A stretch of DNA of 13,549 nt from positions 1 through 13,549 of the forward strand of contig PXUB01000024.1 in assembly GCA_003009755.1 (NCBI GenBank), given 5' to 3'. The position numbers were made by a program, and so were the translations under genes. Origin of the DNA: Thermoplasmatales archaeon SW_10_69_26. Lineage in GTDB: Archaea; Thermoplasmatota; SW-10-69-26. The notes under the pieces were generated by a model. The model saw only the letters and a list, made by a program, of their open reading frames with translations. It made no database searches and was not told where the DNA came from. Of this stretch, positions 165-13,549 are shown piece after piece. Each line of letters starts with the position of its first letter. Position 1 is the stretch's first letter.

Positions 165-1388
165 ATGATCCGCGCGAGACACCTCCTCCACGTCGCTCTG
201 GCCTCGTCGTTGCTCGTTTCGCCAGCCCTGGCTGGCTCCCCAAGCGATCCCGAGATCGGGGACGACGAGGGGGACGTGAACGTCCAGCACATGGTGGACG
301 CCGGCGTGCTCGACGAGGAGGCTCCCCGGGACGAACTGGCGACCGCGGGGGACGTCACGAAGGCGTGGATCGACAAGGACAAGGAGACGCGCGATTCGTT
401 CACGGTCGTCGTCGAGGTGGCCGACATCCCCGACGACGAGAACGTCTCCTCGCCCCTGGTCGACGTCTGGTCCCACTTCACGGTGCGGGAGGGCGATTAC
501 CACGTGAAGGCCAGCTTGACGAAGCCCTCCTCCGGCGAACCGATGGAGGCCAGCTACGAGCTGTACCTGGACGAGACCGCGGTCGGCGAGCTGACGGGCA
601 GCGTGGACGCGGAGGCCGACCGGCTGTCGGTACGCGTGCCGAAGGCCGACGTGCGGGATCCGGGCGGCGACGACGAGCTGTCGAGCTTCTACGTGACGAC
701 GCACGCCCCCGACAGCGGCGTGACGCTGGACTACGCCCCCGGCGCCAAGCAGGACAACGTCGTCGAGGAGGACGCCACGGCGTCGGATCCGACGAGCTTG
801 TCGCTGGCGCCCAGCCCCTCCTACGGTGACCGGTACGCGTTCCAGGACATGGAGGAGACCGCGAGCCAGATCACGGTCGACGTGACGCCGGAGTCGCTGG
901 AGATCGAGGCCGGCCAGCAGGAGAGCTTCGCGGTCCGCGTCGTCAACGACGCCGAGGAGGCCGACGAGGCCTCGCTCAGCGTCTCGAACACGCCGCCCGG
1001 GTGGAGCGCCCGGCTCGACCCCGGCTCGATGACGGTGCCCGCCAAGGGGTCGCAGACTGCCACGCTGCACGTGACGCCGGCCGACGACGCCGAGGGCCAC
1101 GAGCTGATGGACCTCAACGTGGTGACGAGCCTCGGCGCCGACAAGGGAGCCTCGGTCTCCGTGATCGCCGTCCAGTCCGGCGACGCCAGCGCCGAGGAGC
1201 CCGACGCCGAGCAGTCCCCGGCCCAAGACGAGGCCGAGGATACCGGTGACGAGCCCGCGCCGGCCGCCGGGGACGACCCCGAGCAAAGCTCGGCCAAGGA
1301 GGAGGCCGACGCGATCCCGACGCCCTCCGTCGTCGCCGTCCTCGCCGGCCTCGCGGCCGTGGCTACCCTCCTCCGGCGTCGAGGCTAG
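165..1388 (+). CDS. Secreted acidic surface protein with NEW3-like domain and C-terminal anchor
   Basis: A 407-residue exported protein of unknown exact function. Residues 1-23 form a signal peptide (MIRARH, hydrophobic core, cleavage near ALA|GS). Residues about 25-215 are a beta-rich, Asp/Glu-rich domain I do not recognise. Residues about 235-338 look like an NEW3/CARDB-type beta-sandwich, with the hallmark PPGWSARLDPGSMTVPAKG at 277-295. A linker rich in Glu, Asp, Ala and Pro (339-383) leads to PTPS, a hydrophobic segment (389-403) and RRRG. That end resembles archaeal sorting tails such as PGF-CTERM but lacks PGF, so the protein is probably held at the outer face of the membrane. The ATG at 165 is chosen because it begins the signal peptide and lies at the right distance from the TATA box; the in-frame codon at 93 would bury the signal. 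The composition suits a salt-rich environment. The gene stands alone, and a decayed partial copy follows it. Confidence 0.85.
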   Translation: MIRARHLLHVALASSLLVSPALAGSPSDPEIGDDEGDVNVQHMVDAGVLDEEAPRDELATAGDVTKAWIDKDKETRDSFTVVVEVADIPDDENVSSPLVDVWSHFTVREGDYHVKASLTKPSSGEPMEASYELYLDETAVGELTGSVDAEADRLSVRVPKADVRDPGGDDELSSFYVTTHAPDSGVTLDYAPGAKQDNVVEEDATASDPTSLSLAPSPSYGDRYAFQDMEETASQITVDVTPESLEIEAGQQESFAVRVVNDAEEADEASLSVSNTPPGWSARLDPGSMTVPAKGSQTATLHVTPADDAEGHELMDLNVVTSLGADKGASVSVIAVQSGDASAEEPDAEQSPAQDEAEDTGDEPAPAAGDDPEQSSAKEEADAIPTPSVVAVLAGLAAVATLLRRRG

Positions 1389-2123: not shown

Positions 2124-3275
2124 TCAGGTCAGCACGCCGGTGGCCCACATGACGGCGACGCCGAGCAGGGCGCCGGCCGCGACCGGGCCCGAGGTCCAGC
2201 CGGCGTCGACGCGGTCGGACAGCTGGCCGCCGACCTCGACGATGACCTGGGCGATCGCGCCCAAGCCCAGCGAGAAGAACACCGCGCCGAGCAGAGGCGT
2301 GAAGGCGGCTGAGCCCAGCCAGGCACCGACGATCGTCGGCACGCCACCGACGGCGGCCAGCCCGGCCAGGTGGCCCCAGGAGGCCTCCCGCAAGGGGGCC
2401 ACGATGGCGGGACCCTCGGTGACGTTGTGCAACGTGAACCCGAGGATGAGGAAGGTGCCCAAGGCGACCTCGCCGACCGCGTAGGCGGCGCCGATGACGA
2501 GGCCCTCGCCGAAGTTGTGCAGCCCGATGGCGAGGGCGATCAGGTAGGCCATCGCCAGCGGGGACCGGCGCCCGCTTCGGCGATCGACGGCGGCGGACAT
2601 CAGCCGCAGGCCGGCGAGGGCCGCGACGGTGCCGAACAACACGAGGCCCGGTCCACCCAACGGTGCAGGCGCCCGTTCGGCGAGCTCGACGGCCTCGACC
2701 AGGCCCTCCAGGCCGAGGAACGCCAGCAACCCGACGGTGAAGGCCAACAAGGCGGCCTCGTAGCGGCTGGGCAACCGTTTCAACGCCGGCTGCCAGGCGA
2801 CACCGGCGGCCACCGGCAGCACGCCGACGAGGAGCCCGATGAGGGTGTAGGTCCACATCGTCGACCCGTCGAAGCTCTGGGTGGTCTGGGCGGCCTCGAC
2901 CTCGTGACCGACGGTGGCGCCGTCGGCGGTGACGAAGTCGATCTCGACGGCCTCGCCCTCGACCCACGGGTACGGGATCGTGACGGTGGAGGTCTCGAGG
3001 CGCTCCAGCCGGCGATCGGGCTCGACGGTGTGCTCCCAGTAGGCGTCGTTGACGAGCACCTGGGAGAGGCGGACGGGCTCGGGACCCTCGTTGGTGATCA
3101 CCAGCTCGATCCGGTCCTCGGTGAACGTCTCGTCCTCGACGGTGATCTGCGGCGCCGGGGGCGGGCCATCGCGGGCCAGCCACTCGCCGGGGTCGGCGAC
3201 GACCACGATGCCGGCCAACAGCGCCAGCAACGCCAGCGGGATCGCGACGATGGCGATCTGGGCGTCGTCGCTCAC
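2124..3275 (-). CDS. ZIP-family metal transporter with N-terminal external domain
   Basis: A 383-residue membrane protein, probably importing Zn2+, Mn2+ or Fe2+. The C-terminal two thirds (about 143-382) are a ZIP permease: seven or so hydrophobic segments, with the two metal-site motifs HNFGEG (253-258) and HNVTEGP (283-289), and a later helix carrying Glu347. Unlike standard ZIPs, an N-terminal helix (7-27) is followed by about 115 polar residues (30-140) resembling a small beta-sandwich, probably outside the cell. This domain is rich in Glu and has few His, so it does not look like a His-rich metal loop. The start is GTG, overlapping the oxidase stop codon by 4 nt (GTGA), which implies translational coupling. 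Last gene of the regulator-oxidase-transporter operon. The family is clear; the metal and direction are inferred from the family and from the MntR-like regulator. Confidence 0.9.
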   Translation of the reverse strand: MSDDAQIAIVAIPLALLALLAGIVVVADPGEWLARDGPPPAPQITVEDETFTEDRIELVITNEGPEPVRLSQVLVNDAYWEHTVEPDRRLERLETSTVTIPYPWVEGEAVEIDFVTADGATVGHEVEAAQTTQSFDGSTMWTYTLIGLLVGVLPVAAGVAWQPALKRLPSRYEAALLAFTVGLLAFLGLEGLVEAVELAERAPAPLGGPGLVLFGTVAALAGLRLMSAAVDRRSGRRSPLAMAYLIALAIGLHNFGEGLVIGAAYAVGEVALGTFLILGFTLHNVTEGPAIVAPLREASWGHLAGLAAVGGVPTIVGAWLGSAAFTPLLGAVFFSLGLGAIAQVIVEVGGQLSDRVDAGWTSGPVAAGALLGVAVMWATGVLT

Positions 3276-4471
3276 GGTGACCCGCCTGCCTCGCGCTTGA
3301 CCTGGTGGCCGGCTCGTCGGGTCCGATCGTCGACGTCGTCGGCCACGTCCGGTTCTGCGGTCTCGTCGTCACGGTACTGGGAATCGGCGGGGCCTTTCTC
3401 GGAGGAGCGGGCCCGGCCCTCGGAGCTGTCGATGCTGGGATCGGAGGCGACGTCGAAGAACGACAGCCACCCGAGCTCGGCGAACTCGCTTTGATGGGCG
3501 TGGAACATGAGCTTGCCCTCGTGGGGGGGACGGAACTGGAGGATGCCGCGCTGGGCTTGGACTTGGGAGACCGTGTCGATCCAGGTCCGTCGGTTCTCCA
3601 GGCGGCCGGTGTCGTAGTAGTCGAAGAAGTGGGCGTGCAGGTGGAAGCTGTTCACGGCGTCGAACTCCGTGGCGTTGGCGAGGTAGACGCGCACGAGGTC
3701 GTCCTGGCGGACCTGCAGCGGCTTCTCGGCGTAGCAGAACGCCTTCGTGTTGACGGCGTAGATCTCGTTGTCGCCGTCCTGATCGGTGTCGAAGGCGTTC
3801 ATCACCATGACGAACTCGTGGTCGGCCTCGCCCAGGGCTTCGTCGTAGCCGCCGGGTGGGTCGACGACGAACATGCCGTACAGCCCTTTGTGGACGTGCT
3901 TCTTGAGCGGCGTCGAGTGGCAGTGGTAGACGTGCGTGCCGTAGGGTTCGGCGGTGAACTCGTACACGGTCGAGTCGCCGGTGTCGATCATGCCGTCGCC
4001 GAGCCCGGGCACGCCGTCCATCTCGGGGCGGTGGATGCCGTGGAAGTGGATCGTGTGCGGGTGCTCGCTGGCGTTGGAGAACTCCACGCGGATCTCGTCG
4101 CCCTCGTTGGCGCGTAGGGTGGGACCGGGGACCTGGCCGTTGTAGGCCCAGGCGGGGAAGGTGACGCCAGGGGCGACCTCGATCTCCTTGTCGAGGGCGT
4201 CGATGCGGAAGATCCGGCGTTTGCGGCCGTCGCCGAGGTCCTCGATCTCGTCGCCCCAGTTGAACTCGCGCACGTACGAGTACGGATCGAAGTCGTCGGT
4301 GCTCGTCTCGCCGACGGCGCGCAGTTGCGCGATGTCGCTGTCGGTGACGTTGCCTTCGCCGGCGAACTGTTGGGCGAGGCCGGCGATCTCCTCGCTGCCC
4401 GCGAAGAGGCCAGCGCCGAGCGCGGCCGAGCCGGCGATGCCGGCGCCTTGCAGGAAGCGGCGTCGATCCAT
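3272..4471 (-). CDS. Two-domain multicopper oxidase, Tat-exported
   Basis: A 399-residue exported copper enzyme. The N-terminus RRRFLQGAGIAG begins a twin-arginine signal (1 to about 25). Cupredoxin domain 1 (about 85-205) has HPHTIHFHG (137-145) and YHCHSTPLKKHVHKGLYGM (182-200), giving Cys184, a His at 192 or 194 and Met200 as type 1 copper ligands. Domain 2 (about 215-342) has HLHAH (277-281) and HAH (324-326) but no Cys, so it supplies only trinuclear-site ligands. A type 1 site in domain 1 alone is the arrangement of 'type C' two-domain oxidases such as that of Nitrosomonas europaea. A hydrophilic tail of about 50 residues follows. The ATG shares one base with the regulator's stop codon (TGATG). 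Likely substrates are Cu+, Fe2+, Mn2+ or phenolics; a metal-oxidase role is inferred from the neighbouring sensor and transporter. A nitrite reductase is less likely because of the HCH motif. Confidence 0.9.
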   Translation of the reverse strand: MDRRRFLQGAGIAGSAALGAGLFAGSEEIAGLAQQFAGEGNVTDSDIAQLRAVGETSTDDFDPYSYVREFNWGDEIEDLGDGRKRRIFRIDALDKEIEVAPGVTFPAWAYNGQVPGPTLRANEGDEIRVEFSNASEHPHTIHFHGIHRPEMDGVPGLGDGMIDTGDSTVYEFTAEPYGTHVYHCHSTPLKKHVHKGLYGMFVVDPPGGYDEALGEADHEFVMVMNAFDTDQDGDNEIYAVNTKAFCYAEKPLQVRQDDLVRVYLANATEFDAVNSFHLHAHFFDYYDTGRLENRRTWIDTVSQVQAQRGILQFRPPHEGKLMFHAHQSEFAELGWLSFFDVASDPSIDSSEGRARSSEKGPADSQYRDDETAEPDVADDVDDRTRRAGHQVKREAGGSP

Positions 4472-5139
4472 CAGGCGGGCACCTCCTCGACGGTGATCTG
4501 CCGGGCGACGGGTTCCCCCACGTGGACCTGGCGGCCGTCGACCTCGACGGTGAGCACGGCGGCCCCGGGGTCGGCCTCCTCGACGCGGGCCTCGGCGCCG
4601 GGGTACAGGCCCCGGGAGCCGAGGAAGCGCAGCACGTCGGGGTCGTCGTCGCTGACGCGGACGATGCGCACCTCAGCGCCTTCCTCGATCTCGTCGAGCC
4701 GGCGGCCGTCGGGGTTGGGCAGGCTGCCGTCGCGGCTGGGGATCGGGTCCCCGTGCGGGTCGCGTTCGGGGTGGTCCAGGCGCTCGGCGATGCGGTCCTC
4801 GAGCTCCTCGCTGATGTGATGCTCGAGCACCTCGGCTTCCTCGTGCACCTCGTCCCAGGGGATGCCCAGCGTCTCGACGAGGAAAAGCTCCAGCAGTCGA
4901 TGGTGGCGGATGACCTCGAGCGCGGTCAGCTCGCCCGCCGCGGTGAGCTCGACGCCCTCGTAGGGCTCGCGCTCGACGAGGTCCAGCTCGGCGAGGCGCT
5001 GGGTCATGTCGGAGGCCGAGGCGGGCGTCACGTCGAGCCTCTCGGCCAGGACCTTCGGCGTCGGGTCCTCGCCGGCCTCCTGCAGCTCGTGGATGGCTTT
5101 CAGGTAGTCCTGCATCGCCGGCGTCGTTCGCTCGCGCAC
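4471..5139 (-). CDS. DtxR/MntR-family metal-dependent repressor
   Basis: A 222-residue regulator that should bind DNA when loaded with Mn2+ or Fe2+. It has a winged helix (about 1-65, with VTPASASDMTQRL as helix-turn-helix), a dimerisation and metal-binding domain (about 70-130) and an SH3/FeoA-like C-terminal domain (about 150-218). Counting from the GTG at 5139, Asp11, Glu103, Glu106 and His107 match the MntR primary site, and His80, Glu84 and His99 match the second DtxR site. Glu103 stands where DtxR/IdeR has Cys102; Glu there is typical of manganese-selective MntR. The GTG is preferred because it lies 27 nt from the centre of the TATA-like box, matching the leaderless spacing elsewhere; the alternatives are TTG at 5166 (too near the promoter) and ATG at 5115 (shorter N-terminus). 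First gene of the operon, probably autoregulated through the adjoining palindrome. Confidence 0.9.
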   Translation of the reverse strand: MRERTTPAMQDYLKAIHELQEAGEDPTPKVLAERLDVTPASASDMTQRLAELDLVEREPYEGVELTAAGELTALEVIRHHRLLELFLVETLGIPWDEVHEEAEVLEHHISEELEDRIAERLDHPERDPHGDPIPSRDGSLPNPDGRRLDEIEEGAEVRIVRVSDDDPDVLRFLGSRGLYPGAEARVEEADPGAAVLTVEVDGRQVHVGEPVARQITVEEVPA

Positions 5140-5162
5140 ACCGGAGCAAAGGCCCGCCCCCC

Positions 5163-5170
5163 TCAAAAGA
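5163..5170 (-). promoter_or_regulatory. TATA-like box of the metal operon
   Basis: On the minus strand TCTTTTGA lies in GC-rich sequence, centred 27 nt before the GTG at 5139. This predicts a transcript starting at or very near the start codon. It touches the palindrome on its upstream side. Confidence 0.55.
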
Positions 5171-6060: not shown

Positions 6061-6155
6061 GACGGGTGCTCACGGCGGCGGGGCCCTTTGTGCCTATCGT
6101 TTTGGGCCCGCCAGCAGAGGCCCTGGACCCCCCGACCGGGGAACGGGCGCGCAAC

Positions 6156-6166
6156 AAGCTTTATCC
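6156..6166 (+). promoter_or_regulatory. TATA promoter of secreted paralogue A
   Basis: CAACAAGCTTTATCC spans 6152-6166, with the TTTAT core about 28 nt before the ATG at 6190, so the transcript should be leaderless. The same CAACAAG-T-rich block precedes paralogue B at 38-39 nt from its ATG, showing that the promoter was duplicated with the gene. Confidence 0.7.
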
Positions 6167-6189: not shown

Positions 6190-7551
6190 ATGCGCAAGGT
6201 TGCTCTCGTTTTGGGAGTTCTGATGGTCGGCATGACCGTTCCTGGTGGTGCCCTCGCCCAGGACGGCGGGCAACCCGCAGGTGACAGCGACGACGTCACC
6301 TTCTACGGGCACGTGTTCACGCACGGGCTCGGCGCTCCGACGCCGGCGAACACGGAGTTCCCGACGGGCGAGACGATCTACGGGATCGGCACCGGCGGGA
6401 ACTGCGCCAGCGCTGTCCCGAACGCGATCATGGCCGATTGCCAGGAGACGCCCTGGAACAAGCTGGCGATGTTCTCGACGGCCGGCTTCGTGGACATCAA
6501 GAGCCCGGCCGAGTTCACGCAGAACGGCGCCTACACCCAGCTGCACAACGAGCGCGGCCAGACGAAGGACGTCCAGCTGGACGACAGCGGCACGGTGTCC
6601 AGCAGCCTGTACGGCACGTGGGACGCTCACGGTTGGGCCGTGCGGGCCGGCAACGCGTACGGAACGAACTGCGTGGGCCCGCACGCGCCCGGGGTCCCCT
6701 GCATGTATCCCTACTGGGGCTGGGACCCTGGCGTGTTCGAGAACGTGGTCATGGAGGCCACGATGTACCACGCCAACCTCGGCGAGCGCACGAACAGCTC
6801 GCAAGCCCCGCCGATCCAGGACGTCGTCGAAAGCGGCGAGGCGACCGTCGTCGCGGACGCGACGTGGGGCCCTGACCAGGTCATCAACAGTCTGCCGGGC
6901 TTCCCGAACGCCTTCCAGTGGGAGATCGACATGGGTGCGCCCCAGGTCGACACGATCCCGCGATCCGACGACTTCTTCGTCGTGTACGACACGTTCCAAC
7001 AGACCGGTGGGGAGAACAACTGCAACCGATGCCCGATGCGGTGGTGGAGCGGCGAGTTCTTCCCGCCCAGCTTCGAGCTCCCCGTCGAGAACGCCTTCAC
7101 CGTCGAGCGCGCGGTGCCGACGTTCGCCAACGGCCAGCTGGCGATCCTCGGCATCATGAACTCGCCGTGGGGCAGCTACGACGTCGACGCCGACAGCGTC
7201 GAGCTCGACGTCGAGGGCCCCCAAGGCGACGCGTCGCCAGACAACCTCGAGCGCTACGCCGACTTCAGTACCGCCCACGGCGGTCACTTCAACCCGGTGA
7301 ACGTCACCTGGATCTGGGATTACCGCGCCGACGACGCTCCGACCGGCGAGTACGAGATCACGATCTCGGCCCAGAACTTCCAGAACAGCGCCAGCGCGAC
7401 CTGCAAGGCGACCTTCACCCTCGAAGAGGGACCCGACGGTGCGCCGGCGGCCGGTGAAGTGACCGAGGGCGTGTGCGGGACGCAGTCTGCGGGTGCCGAG
7501 GAGCAGGTCGAGGAATCCCAGCGCGACGTCGAGGATCAGACCGACGAGTGA
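6190..7551 (+). CDS. Secreted eight-cysteine protein, tandem paralogue A
   Basis: A 453-residue exported protein of a family I cannot name. MRKVALVLGVLMVGMTVPGG starts a signal peptide, cleaved near ALA|QD (23/24). The mature protein begins with VTFYGHVF (36-43), has an aromatic-rich core (PCMYPYWGWDPG, 170-181; MEATMYHANLGERTNSS, 188-204), a CxxC-like NCNRCPMRWWSGEFFPPSF (277-295) and a C-terminal beta-sandwich-like part (PWGSYD, AHGGHFNPVNVTWIWDY, 362-378). Cysteines 72, 84, 161, 171, 278, 281, 405 and 429 all have partners in paralogue B, suggesting up to four disulfides outside the cell. NSS and NVT sequons could be glycosylated. The end is acidic with no anchor, so it is probably released. 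The ATG at 6190 is set by the signal peptide and TATA box; the frame is open much further upstream, but that part is not coding. Next to it, B is a close tandem duplicate. Confidence 0.85.
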   Translation: MRKVALVLGVLMVGMTVPGGALAQDGGQPAGDSDDVTFYGHVFTHGLGAPTPANTEFPTGETIYGIGTGGNCASAVPNAIMADCQETPWNKLAMFSTAGFVDIKSPAEFTQNGAYTQLHNERGQTKDVQLDDSGTVSSSLYGTWDAHGWAVRAGNAYGTNCVGPHAPGVPCMYPYWGWDPGVFENVVMEATMYHANLGERTNSSQAPPIQDVVESGEATVVADATWGPDQVINSLPGFPNAFQWEIDMGAPQVDTIPRSDDFFVVYDTFQQTGGENNCNRCPMRWWSGEFFPPSFELPVENAFTVERAVPTFANGQLAILGIMNSPWGSYDVDADSVELDVEGPQGDASPDNLERYADFSTAHGGHFNPVNVTWIWDYRADDAPTGEYEITISAQNFQNSASATCKATFTLEEGPDGAPAAGEVTEGVCGTQSAGAEEQVEESQRDVEDQTDE

Positions 7552-7608
7552 CCCTCGACGGGGCCGTCGACCGGCCTGCGGGCAACAAGGTTTTTGTCCC
7601 GTCGAGGG
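7552..7608 (+). promoter_or_regulatory. 11-bp inverted repeat around the TATA box of paralogue B
   Basis: CCCTCGACGGG (7552-7562), directly after the stop of A, is the exact complement of CCCGTCGAGGG (7598-7608), which lies between the TATA box and the start of B. The 35-nt spacer contains the promoter core. It could end A's transcript, bind a regulator, or be chance; paralogue A has no such pair at its own promoter. Confidence 0.45.
7588..7598 (+). promoter_or_regulatory. TATA promoter of secreted paralogue B
   Basis: CAACAAGGTTTTTGTCCC begins at 7583; the T-rich core is about 29 nt before the ATG at 7622. It matches the promoter of A around CAACAAG and the following CCGTCG, so B should have its own leaderless transcript rather than depend on read-through from A. 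Confidence 0.65.
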
Positions 7609-7621
7609 CACTGCGGCCTCG

Positions 7622-9004
7622 ATGCGAGGCAAGGCTGCCCTCGTGGCTGGGTTGATGCTGCTCATGACCGCCCCGCCGACGGCGATGGCCCAAAGCGGGG
7701 GACAGGGGGGCACGGACGAGGTCACCTTCTACGGCCACATCTTCGACGCCACCATCGCTGGCCCCAACCCGGCCAACACCGAGGCACCGGTCGGCGAAGA
7801 CAACTTCGGGCTCGGCTTCGGCGTGAACTGCCAGGACGTCGGTCCCGCTCTGCCGGGGGCGCCCACGCCGCTCGTCGGCGACGACTGGGAGTCCTGCCAG
7901 GACGAGGAGGGCAACAAGATGGTGATGTTCTCCACCGCCGGGCCCGTCGACGTGCAGAACCGGGCCGAGTTCCTGCAGAACGGCGCCTACTCGCAGCTGC
8001 ACAACGAGCGGGGGCAGACCAAGCCCGTCCAGTTGGACGACAGCGGCTCGATCTCGGCCAGCCTCTACGGTACGTGGGACACGCACGGCTGGGTGGTCGG
8101 GTACCCGAACCCGTACGGGACGAACTGCATGGGCACCCACCCGCCCGGCGTCCCGTGCATGTACCCGTACTGGGGCTGGGACCCCGGCGTCTACGAGGAC
8201 GTGGTCATGGAGGCCACGATGTACCACGCCAACCTGGGCGAGCGCACGAACAGCTCGCAAGCCCCGCCGATCCAGGAGGCCGTCGACAGCGGCGAGGCCA
8301 CGGTCGTGGCCGAGGGCCAGTGGGGTCCCGACCAGGTGGTGAACGGCCTGCCGGGCTCGGCGAACGCGTTCCACTGGGAGATCGATCTCGGCCCGCCGCA
8401 GGTCGAGGAGATCCCGCGCGAGGACGATTTCTTCCTCGTCTTCACCACCTACCAGTCGCCGAGCGGCAACGACTACTGCTACGATTGCCCGATGCGGTGG
8501 TGGAGCGGCGAGTTCTTCCCGCCCAGCTTCGAGCTCCCCGTCGAGAACGCCTTCACGGTCGAGCGCACGGTCCCGAACTTCGCCAACGGGAAGATGGCGA
8601 TCCTGGGCATCCTGAACACCCCGTGGGGCAGCTACGACGTCGACGAGGACAGCGTCGACGTCGAGATCGAGGGCCCCCAGGGTGAGGTGACCCCGGAGAA
8701 CATCCAGCGCTACTCCGACTTCAGCGTCGCGCACGGCGGTCACTTCGATCCGGTGAACGTCACCTGGATCTGGGACTACCGCGCCGACGACGTCCCCCCC
8801 GGCCAGTACGAGGTCACGGTCACCGGCGCCAACGCCCAGAACTCGGCGCAGGCCACGTGCACGGCCTCGTTCACGATCGAGGCGGACGGCGAGGATCTGG
8901 CGCCGGGCGAGGCCGAGGAAGCTGCGTGCGGGATCCAGGGCGTCGCGACCGAGGAGGCCGTCGAGGAAGCTCGCGAGGGCGCGAACGAGACCACCGAAGG
9001 CTAA
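7622..9004 (+). CDS. Secreted eight-cysteine protein, tandem paralogue B
   Basis: A 460-residue close relative of A, colinear over the whole mature length. MRGKAALVAGLMLLMTAPPT starts the signal peptide, cleaved near AMA|QS (23/24). All eight cysteines (70, 92, 169, 179, 286, 289, 413, 436) and the blocks VTFYGH, QLHNERGQTK, YPYWGWDPGV, MEATMYHANLGER and CPMRWWSGEFFPPSFELPVE are kept. The main differences are a longer loop between the first two cysteines (70-92, against 72-84) and a different acidic C-terminal tail, with an extra NET sequon. The start is fixed by signal peptide and TATA position; 70 nt separate it from the stop of A. The role is unknown: no enzyme motif is evident, but conserved His, Trp and Tyr residues and the CxxC pair could make a binding surface or metal site. 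An extracellular or surface-layer-associated role is inferred only from the signal peptide and disulfide pattern. Confidence 0.85.
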   Translation: MRGKAALVAGLMLLMTAPPTAMAQSGGQGGTDEVTFYGHIFDATIAGPNPANTEAPVGEDNFGLGFGVNCQDVGPALPGAPTPLVGDDWESCQDEEGNKMVMFSTAGPVDVQNRAEFLQNGAYSQLHNERGQTKPVQLDDSGSISASLYGTWDTHGWVVGYPNPYGTNCMGTHPPGVPCMYPYWGWDPGVYEDVVMEATMYHANLGERTNSSQAPPIQEAVDSGEATVVAEGQWGPDQVVNGLPGSANAFHWEIDLGPPQVEEIPREDDFFLVFTTYQSPSGNDYCYDCPMRWWSGEFFPPSFELPVENAFTVERTVPNFANGKMAILGILNTPWGSYDVDEDSVDVEIEGPQGEVTPENIQRYSDFSVAHGGHFDPVNVTWIWDYRADDVPPGQYEVTVTGANAQNSAQATCTASFTIEADGEDLAPGEAEEAACGIQGVATEEAVEEAREGANETTEG

Positions 9005-12004: not shown

Positions 12005-12616
12005 ATGGACGTGCGCGTCTCCGGGTTCCGCGTGGAGGGGTCCTGGGAGACGGTGGTCCGCCACGCCGAACGCGTCTCCCGCGCCCTGTTGCGTGCGCTG
12101 GCCGGCCGGGAGGAGGAGGCCACCGCCCGCGAGAACGAGGCCTTCGGCCAGTGGGAGCACTGGCGGCCCCGACGGCGGGACGCGGGGGCCGAGAAGATGC
12201 GGGAACGGACCGCCGAGCAGGCCAGCGTCGACGAGGGCGACGGCGAGCAGGAGGGCATCGGCGTGCGGGAGGATTTGGCCGATGCAGGCCGCAAGCTCGA
12301 CGAGGCGGCCAGCGACCTCACCGAAGCTGGGGTCCGCGAGGCTGCCTCCTCGGTCGGCGAGTCCGTGGAGCACGCGGCGCGGGCCGCCGACCAGGCCGGC
12401 CGGCGGGCGCTGCGCGCCGTCGAGGAAGGCCTGTACCGCCACCTGGTGACGCGCGTCTCGCCCTACTACTTCGACAACCCGCTCGTCCACGCGAACCTCG
12501 AGCGGGTCGGCGAGGGTCGGTTCGTGTTCGAGGTCGACGTCAAGGACGACGAGCTCAAGGCGGCCGTCCACGAGGAGCTGGAGGGCATGGTCGAGGACGA
12601 GACCGACCCCGCCTGA
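12005..12616 (+). CDS. DUF5828-like haloarchaeal conserved protein
   Basis: A 203-residue, highly charged cytoplasmic protein of unknown function. The order of blocks is one I recall from a family conserved in haloarchaea (DUF5828): an N-terminal VSGFRVEGSWETVVRHAERV (5-24), the motif EHWRPRRRDA (51-60), TAEQASVDEGDGE (69-81), a long acidic and Ala-rich helical middle (about 85-140), VTRVSPYYFDNPLVHANLER (148-167) and a short C-terminal beta/alpha part (FVFEVDVKDDELKAAV, 173-188). There is no signal, membrane segment or catalytic motif. The ATG at 12005 gives the expected N-terminus; I see no good TATA box or ribosome site in front of it. It is convergent with the hydrolase fragment, and a hairpin separates the two. 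The family name is from memory and would need a profile search. Confidence 0.8.
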   Translation: MDVRVSGFRVEGSWETVVRHAERVSRALLRALAGREEEATARENEAFGQWEHWRPRRRDAGAEKMRERTAEQASVDEGDGEQEGIGVREDLADAGRKLDEAASDLTEAGVREAASSVGESVEHAARAADQAGRRALRAVEEGLYRHLVTRVSPYYFDNPLVHANLERVGEGRFVFEVDVKDDELKAAVHEELEGMVEDETDPA

Positions 12617-12644: not shown

Positions 12645-13448
12645 TCACTCGGCCAGCGGGCTCACGGGCAACGCGAGCTGGCCGGGACGTTCGCCGTCGA
12701 GGTGGACGGTGACCTCGCCGCTGTCGTAGGCGGGCACGGTGCGACCCTCGTCGTGGGAGCGCAGCGTGAGCTCGATCGTCGAGCCGGCCGGGATGACATC
12801 CTCCTGGGGGTACATCTCGATCGTGACCGGCGTGGGTTCGCCCGGGATCAACCGCTGGGGATCCTCGAGCCCGGAGCGGTAGGTCGGGTCGAGGTAGCCG
12901 AAGTTCTGCCGGGAGGGACCCTCCCCATCGTCGACCGCGAGCACGGCCACGAGGTGGACGTCGTCCTCGCTGGCCTCGACCGTGAGGTTCAGCTCGGGCG
13001 TGCCCGACAGGTGCAGGTCCTCGTCGAGCTCCTCGCTGCGGAGGACGACCTGGCTGGCGTCGGTGGCGGTCTGCTGACCCTTGGTCGCCTGCCAGCCGAC
13101 CTCGCCCTCGGGGGCTTGGTCCCACCCGAGCCCGTCCGCGGTGAGGTTCAGGAAGCGGTGCTCGGCCTCGGCCGGCGGCCAGGTGTCCTCGTAGGTTTGC
13201 CAGTCGCCGGCGTTGTCCTGGATGTAGGCCCGATCCTCGGCGAAGAGACCGGTGTCGGCGCCGTCGAGCGTCTGGTCGAAGAAGGCGACGGCCAGCTCCC
13301 ACCAGTCGCCGTAGACGTCCTCGTCGGTGTCGGCGGGGTAGGCGTGGCCCCACTGGCCGGCGACGAGGGTTTTGTTCACGTCGAGCTCGTTGAACCAGGG
13401 GTCGATGTGGTCGGGCTTGACGTTCCAGTCGGCCAGGCCTTGAGCCAT
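12645..13448 (-). pseudogene. C-terminal fragment of a CocE/X-Pro dipeptidyl-peptidase-like hydrolase
   Basis: The 267 residues match the second half of CocE/NonD-type serine hydrolases: GLADWNVKPDH (4-14) with the catalytic Asp7, GQWGHAY (31-37) with catalytic His35, YGDWWELAVAFFDQTL (46-61), and from about 110 a beta jelly-roll of the X-Pro peptidase C-terminal type. The N-terminal half with the nucleophile Ser (GxSYGG) is absent, so the product cannot be a normal hydrolase. Homology begins at the ATG itself. The frame stays open to the window edge, but its third positions there turn AT-rich and the residues no longer resemble the family, so the true gene was probably cut near 13449. A truncated gene translated from an internal Met, or a frame joined to more gene beyond 13549, are the alternatives. 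No signal peptide is present. Confidence 0.65.
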
Positions 13449-13549
13449 GAGCGCCCTCGCCCAAAACCCCAGACTGGCCTCTGATCCGACTCGACCCAGT
13501 AGAAACTGATTCGAAGAATAAACGGCGGGTTCGGCGACTTTTGTTTTGA
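13449..13549. other. AT-richer promoter-like stretch at window end
   Basis: This 101-bp segment is distinctly AT-richer than the rest. On the minus strand CCGTTTATTCTT (around 13522) looks like a TATA box about 74 nt before the ATG at 13448. On the plus strand GACTTTTGTTTTGA at the very edge could serve a gene beyond the window. I see no coding sequence in it. Confidence 0.35.

Follow-up and report, generated by a model that had tools for sequence, protein, structure and literature searches.

Tandem secreted proteins with a predicted PepX_C-type jelly roll and Ig-like domain form an undescribed archaeal family

Our analysis of a 13,549-nt stretch of DNA from Thermoplasmatales archaeon SW_10_69_26 (the window, a single contig, G000:C24, of a 2.8-Mb assembly that is 95% complete; G000 denotes the window's genome) reveals two adjacent genes whose products, P0001 and P0002, belong to a family that is new to the libraries searched and has familiar parts. 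In particular, the N-terminal domain is predicted to have a PepX_C-type jelly-roll fold, without a catalytic hydrolase domain, and is followed by a predicted Ig-like domain. Our best explanation, to which we give a probability of roughly 0.6, is that these are non-catalytic extracellular binding or scaffold proteins, released from the cell in this genome and surface-anchored in relatives.

Table 1. Features of the tandem gene pair in the window, and loci of the gene for lipoprotein B in the class
Feature	Coordinates	Strand	Basis or remark
BRE/TATA-like promoter of gene 1, GCAACAAGCTTTATC	6151..6165	+	by consensus only; consistent with leaderless mRNA
Gene 1, secreted protein P0001, 453 aa	6190..7551	+	ATG 6190, stop 7551; homologues
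Signal peptide of P0001, residues 1-24	6190..6261	+	read from sequence; ends ALAQ, no lipobox cysteine
N-terminal PepX_C-like jelly-roll domain of P0001, about residues 31-300	6280..7089	+	predicted model; homologous domain
Cys72 and Cys84 codons	6403..6441	+	column count; sole pair common to ten of ten close members; putative disulfide
Cys161 and Cys171 codons	6670..6702	+	pair common to third copy and G003; Cys171 in G005 too
Cys278 and Cys281 codons (CNRC, CxxC)	7021..7032	+	limited to the two tandem copies
C-terminal Ig-like domain of P0001, about residues 301-425	7090..7464	+	model match
Cys405 and Cys429 codons	7402..7476	+	pair common to third copy and G003
Acidic C-terminal tail of P0001	7465..7551	+	site of transmembrane anchor in relatives; anchor absent here
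BRE/TATA-like promoter of gene 2, GCAACAAGGTTTTTGT	7582..7597	+	by consensus only; homologous to that of gene 1
Gene 2, secreted protein P0002, 460 aa	7622..9004	+	ATG 7622, stop 9004
Signal peptide of P0002, residues 1-24	7622..7693	+	read from sequence; ends AMAQ
PepX_C-like jelly-roll domain of P0002, about residues 29-308	7706..8545	+	alignment
Lipoprotein B loci	L066 1-1212 (-); L067 6548-7879; L068 8037-9377; L070 5338-6672 (-)		adjoin family gene

P0001 and P0002 are 67% identical, and the reading frame of both genes is preserved in homologues elsewhere, indicating that the open reading frames are real. An earlier sequence-only reading had proposed two adjacent exported proteins with eight cysteines and near-identical core blocks, and this is what we find: each protein has eight cysteines and a signal peptide recognised by eye (MRKVALVLGVLMVGMTVPGGALAQ in P0001, MRGKAALVAGLMLLMTAPPTAMAQ in P0002), and the two genes share identical DNA runs of 71 nt (the longest), 41 nt and 37 nt. 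Despite these long runs, a permutation test gave no significant evidence of gene conversion between the two genes (p = 0.064). The composition of both proteins is strongly acidic (pI 4.05; Lys+Arg 3%), which fits a salt-in lifestyle. The pair is flanked by a hydrolase-fold gene and a gene for an AMP-binding synthetase. Elsewhere, the window encodes an exported protein that weakly matches NEW3/NPCBM_assoc and has an anchor-like C-terminal transmembrane helix ending in RRRG (165-1388, plus strand), a DUF5828 protein (12005-12616, plus strand; E 1.8e-60), and a cluster that looks like a metal homeostasis operon (2124-5166, minus strand). The cluster comprises a DtxR-type regulator with a FeoA domain, a multicopper oxidase that has two domains and begins with a twin-arginine-like sequence, and a membrane protein weakly resembling ZIP.

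The proposal that each gene has its own copy of a duplicated promoter is borne out. The 60-nt segments upstream of genes 1 and 2 align with a score of 15, compared with 0.04 +/- 4.1 for random window segments, and none of about 3000 random pairs of window segments reached this score. Both upstream regions contain GCAACAAG, followed by a TATA-like TTTAT or TTTTT about 25 nt before the ATG; the BRE/TATA-like element lies some 25-35 nt 5' of the start codon in both genes. The two promoters have BRE/TATA scores of 7/8 and 6/8; scores of at least 6 occur in 7 of 2000 random segments and upstream of 8 of 67 genes in this genome. The promoter type is thus ordinary, since such elements precede many genes of this genome, and its duplication is real. 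With a promoter of its own, each gene may be regulated separately or add to dosage, as the earlier reading argued.

Searches of Pfam, NCBIfam and PDB sequences gave no above-threshold match for P0001, P0002 or their relatives, and the open-licence papers searched yielded nothing relevant on a stand-alone PepX_C protein or on this family. Homologues are present in six of the seven genomes of the class and in 18 of the 389 phylum genomes sampled, with some of these matches partial or weak. The named records found are metagenome-assembled genomes labelled Halobacteriales, Euryarchaeota and Thermoplasmata. G000 itself carries a third copy (G000:C14:1226-2578, 56% identity). Scanning genome contigs returned no relative with a single protein as query and seven loci with the alignment as query; no family member was found in viral contigs. 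One locus, labelled Prevotella (L022, 77 residues, 34% identity), was treated as a chance match.

In a tree of 23 members, copies from the same genome cluster together with high support in seven genomes (G000, G004, G005, G062, G076, G151 and G213), and therefore duplication, often in tandem, has occurred separately in at least seven genomes, or copies have been homogenised. Two deep paralogues are held only by G002. The description of an undescribed family of tandem secreted proteins thus holds, given the absence of an above-threshold match and the multiple, mostly tandem copies in seven genomes.

The further claim that the proteins match no recognised family stands at the level of sequence, but the predicted fold is PepX_C for the N-terminal domain and Ig-like for the C-terminal domain. 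We obtained two structural models: an AlphaFold2 model of P0001 with nine relatives (model 1; mean pLDDT 64, pTM 0.65), and a model of only the N-terminal domain of a homologue from groundwater that shares about 20% identity with P0001 (model 2; mean pLDDT 67, pTM 0.71). Both are of moderate confidence and derive from 10-13 sequences, and their alignments share sequences, such that model 2 is not fully independent of model 1. Model 1 is almost all beta. In VIA-align comparisons, the best match of P0001 residues 27-301 is the C-terminal jelly roll of cocaine esterase (residues 347-573; Z 8.2, 158 residues aligned, rmsd 3.6), and residues 301-425 match many Ig domains (Z about 7-8); relatives give weak PKD/Ig_J profile matches. 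With model 2, all of the first 25 VIA-align rows are PepX_C-type domains (Z 9.8 to 6.2, 149-179 residues aligned) from enzymes of the CocE/NonD, amino-acid ester hydrolase and X-Pro aminopeptidase types, and the first other fold appears at Z 6.1. Foldseek gives E < 0.001 for two matches only, both to CocE/NonD hydrolases (prob 1.00).

At the sequence level, the family profile aligns weakly to PepX_C in hhalign (probability 8%, P 0.004, compared with P 0.03-0.77 for shuffled and reversed controls and P 0.008 for a PKD profile), with the ends of both domains in register (FPxRFxLPVxNP). The PF08530 profile (cut-off 22.5 bits) does not match P0001, P0002 or 12 relatives. PF08530 is abundant in these genomes: it has 10 matches in G000, one of them at window positions 12699-13226. 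That match lies in a PepX_C-bearing protein of X-Pro dipeptidyl-peptidase type (12645-13547, minus strand; truncated by the contig end), to which BLAST of P0001 gave no match.

The resemblance of the P0001 N-terminal domain to PepX_C domains (PF08530; found in CocE/NonD hydrolases, alpha-amino-acid ester hydrolases and X-Pro dipeptidyl-peptidases) is thus one of predicted fold over about 150-180 residues. Whereas these enzymes carry an alpha/beta hydrolase domain in front, which in CocE/NonD hydrolases bears the catalytic triad, P0001 and P0002 lack one: no alpha/beta hydrolase profile match was found, and only the signal peptide precedes the jelly roll, leaving no room. Unlike the enzymes, P0001 and P0002 have a fused Ig-like domain, and relatives add a membrane anchor. 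To our knowledge, the role of the PepX_C domain within the enzymes themselves is not settled. Jelly-roll carbohydrate-binding modules (CBM27, CBM28, CBM4 and CBM22) share the sandwich and are the next best structural matches of model 2 (Z 5.3-6.1), with CBM16 and CBM22 among its Foldseek matches; however, they match the N-terminal domain less well than PepX_C does and have no sequence match to it, and the likeness is one of general predicted fold.

Outside G000, almost every relative has a C-terminal transmembrane helix followed by arginines (the G003 tail is ambiguous), whereas all three G000 copies lack a C-terminal anchor. Specifically, the relatives end, like PGF-CTERM archaeal surface proteins, in a proline-glycine motif, a transmembrane helix and arginines, and two of them weakly match TIGR04126; in P0001 and P0002 this tail is missing and acidic tails are present instead. 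All seven class genomes encode archaeosortase A.

The neighbourhood of the family gene is shared among several class genomes. In G002, G003 and G004, genes for lipoprotein B (about 445 aa, without a match in Pfam) and for a PKD lipoprotein, lipoprotein C, lie downstream of it in the same orientation. In G000, lipoprotein B adjoins the third copy, and neither lipoprotein adjoins the window's pair. Among 145 genomes sampled, lipoprotein B was found in 5, all of them within the class; it was not found in G005, an assembly that is 76% complete. A second, different lipoprotein B copy in G000 (L080, 1-453) is cut by the start of contig C37, and a further family member may be absent from the assembly. 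We considered C14 and C37 as adjoining contigs and rejected this, the two lipoprotein B pieces overlapping in the model and differing in sequence, indicating two copies. Several class genomes also have deoxyhypusine synthase, an aminotransferase and the histidine-degradation genes hutH and hutI close to the family gene; genes for histidine ammonia-lyase, imidazolonepropionase and deoxyhypusine synthase are found at loci L067, L068, L070 and L072. More distant relatives adjoin carboxypeptidase-regulatory-like lipoproteins.

The cysteine count, which had been put forward as a family character, is the least general feature of the family. A single pair is common to the ten close members, whose totals range from 4 to 8, and distant members have 0-5; the third copy and all other relatives examined have 0-7, making the eight-cysteine pattern specific to the tandem pair. 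Counted by column, Cys405, Cys429 and Cys161 are present in the three G000 copies and in G003, and Cys171 additionally in the G005 copies. Other members have cysteines elsewhere nearby; in G002, G004 and G005, for instance, they fall at positions 395 and 401/402 of P0001. The eight-cysteine pattern is accordingly a local stage of a lineage gaining cysteines in pairs, and gain in pairs suggests structural disulfides.

The export signal, the predicted folds, the lack of a catalytic domain and of an anchor, and the repeated duplication lead us to infer a protein that acts outside the cell in binding or as a scaffold. The signal peptide would export each protein, which would then comprise a hydrolase-free jelly roll of the PepX_C type and, C-terminal to it, an Ig-like domain. 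Cysteine pairs, probably disulfides, would hold the structure together, and its acidic surface would be an adaptation to high salt. In related genomes, a C-terminal anchor would tether the protein to the cell surface, with two lipoproteins made alongside; the anchor and the lipoprotein neighbours thus make a job on the cell surface or immediately outside it probable. The partner could be a glycan, a peptide or a protein, perhaps in a complex with lipoproteins B and C. The three G000 copies, having no anchor, would be free or held by a partner, and tandem duplication would have taken the promoter along, giving two separately transcribed copies. The binding function, the surface complex and the disulfides we likewise infer.

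The cysteines also bear on a different reading, in which P0001 and P0002 are thiol-disulfide or redox proteins. The CxxC-like pair noted from sequence is present in both tandem copies (CNRC in P0001, CYDC in P0002), but it is missing from 21 of 21 other members examined, including the third G000 copy, the model is almost all beta rather than thioredoxin-like, and there is no Pfam thioredoxin match; we regard a redox role as highly improbable. Conserved His and Glu residues weigh against the non-catalytic reading, as they could form a metal site or belong to an enzyme. A metal-dependent extracellular enzyme or metal-binding protein would have a shared site made up of His41, His119 and Glu121 of the N-terminal domain and His363 and His366 of the Ig domain. 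His41 is invariant in 23 of 23 members and the other four residues are present in 20-21 of 23; where these four are missing, it is from one small set of divergent copies (G012, G076b, G062b and G062c). Genes for a DtxR-type metal regulator and a multicopper oxidase, moreover, neighbour the pair in the window. If that set has simply diverged overall, however, the joint loss is accounted for just as well, and the best fold matches are non-catalytic domains, making this reading doubtful.

Somewhat less unlikely is a structural component of the cell envelope, S-layer-associated or matrix, in which the beta-sandwich domains pack with the lipoproteins into a surface layer and bind no ligand. The proteins have beta-sandwich domains only (predicted), relatives are anchored, there are several copies per genome, and the two lipoproteins adjoin in three genomes. 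Yet the family occurs in just 18 of the 389 phylum genomes and was not found in one of the seven class genomes, the G000 copies have no anchor, and the 76%-complete G005 shows no lipoprotein B. A more elaborate scheme, speculative and in our judgement a long way from probable, would be a new class-specific surface system of halophilic archaea, tied to amino-acid (histidine) utilisation. In it, an orphan PepX_C/Ig protein with a His/Glu metal site between its domains would be the subunit that captures a ligand or catalyses a reaction, working with lipoproteins B and C, and would here have diversified into released, disulfide-stabilised tandem copies.

Taking the preferred reading of a non-catalytic extracellular binding or scaffold protein, our analysis provides a predicted fold and a testable role for a nameless family that has been duplicated repeatedly in an uncultured archaeal lineage. 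The architecture suggests that an accessory domain of hydrolases is able to exist alone as a secreted protein, which bears on what the PepX_C domain does in its enzymes.
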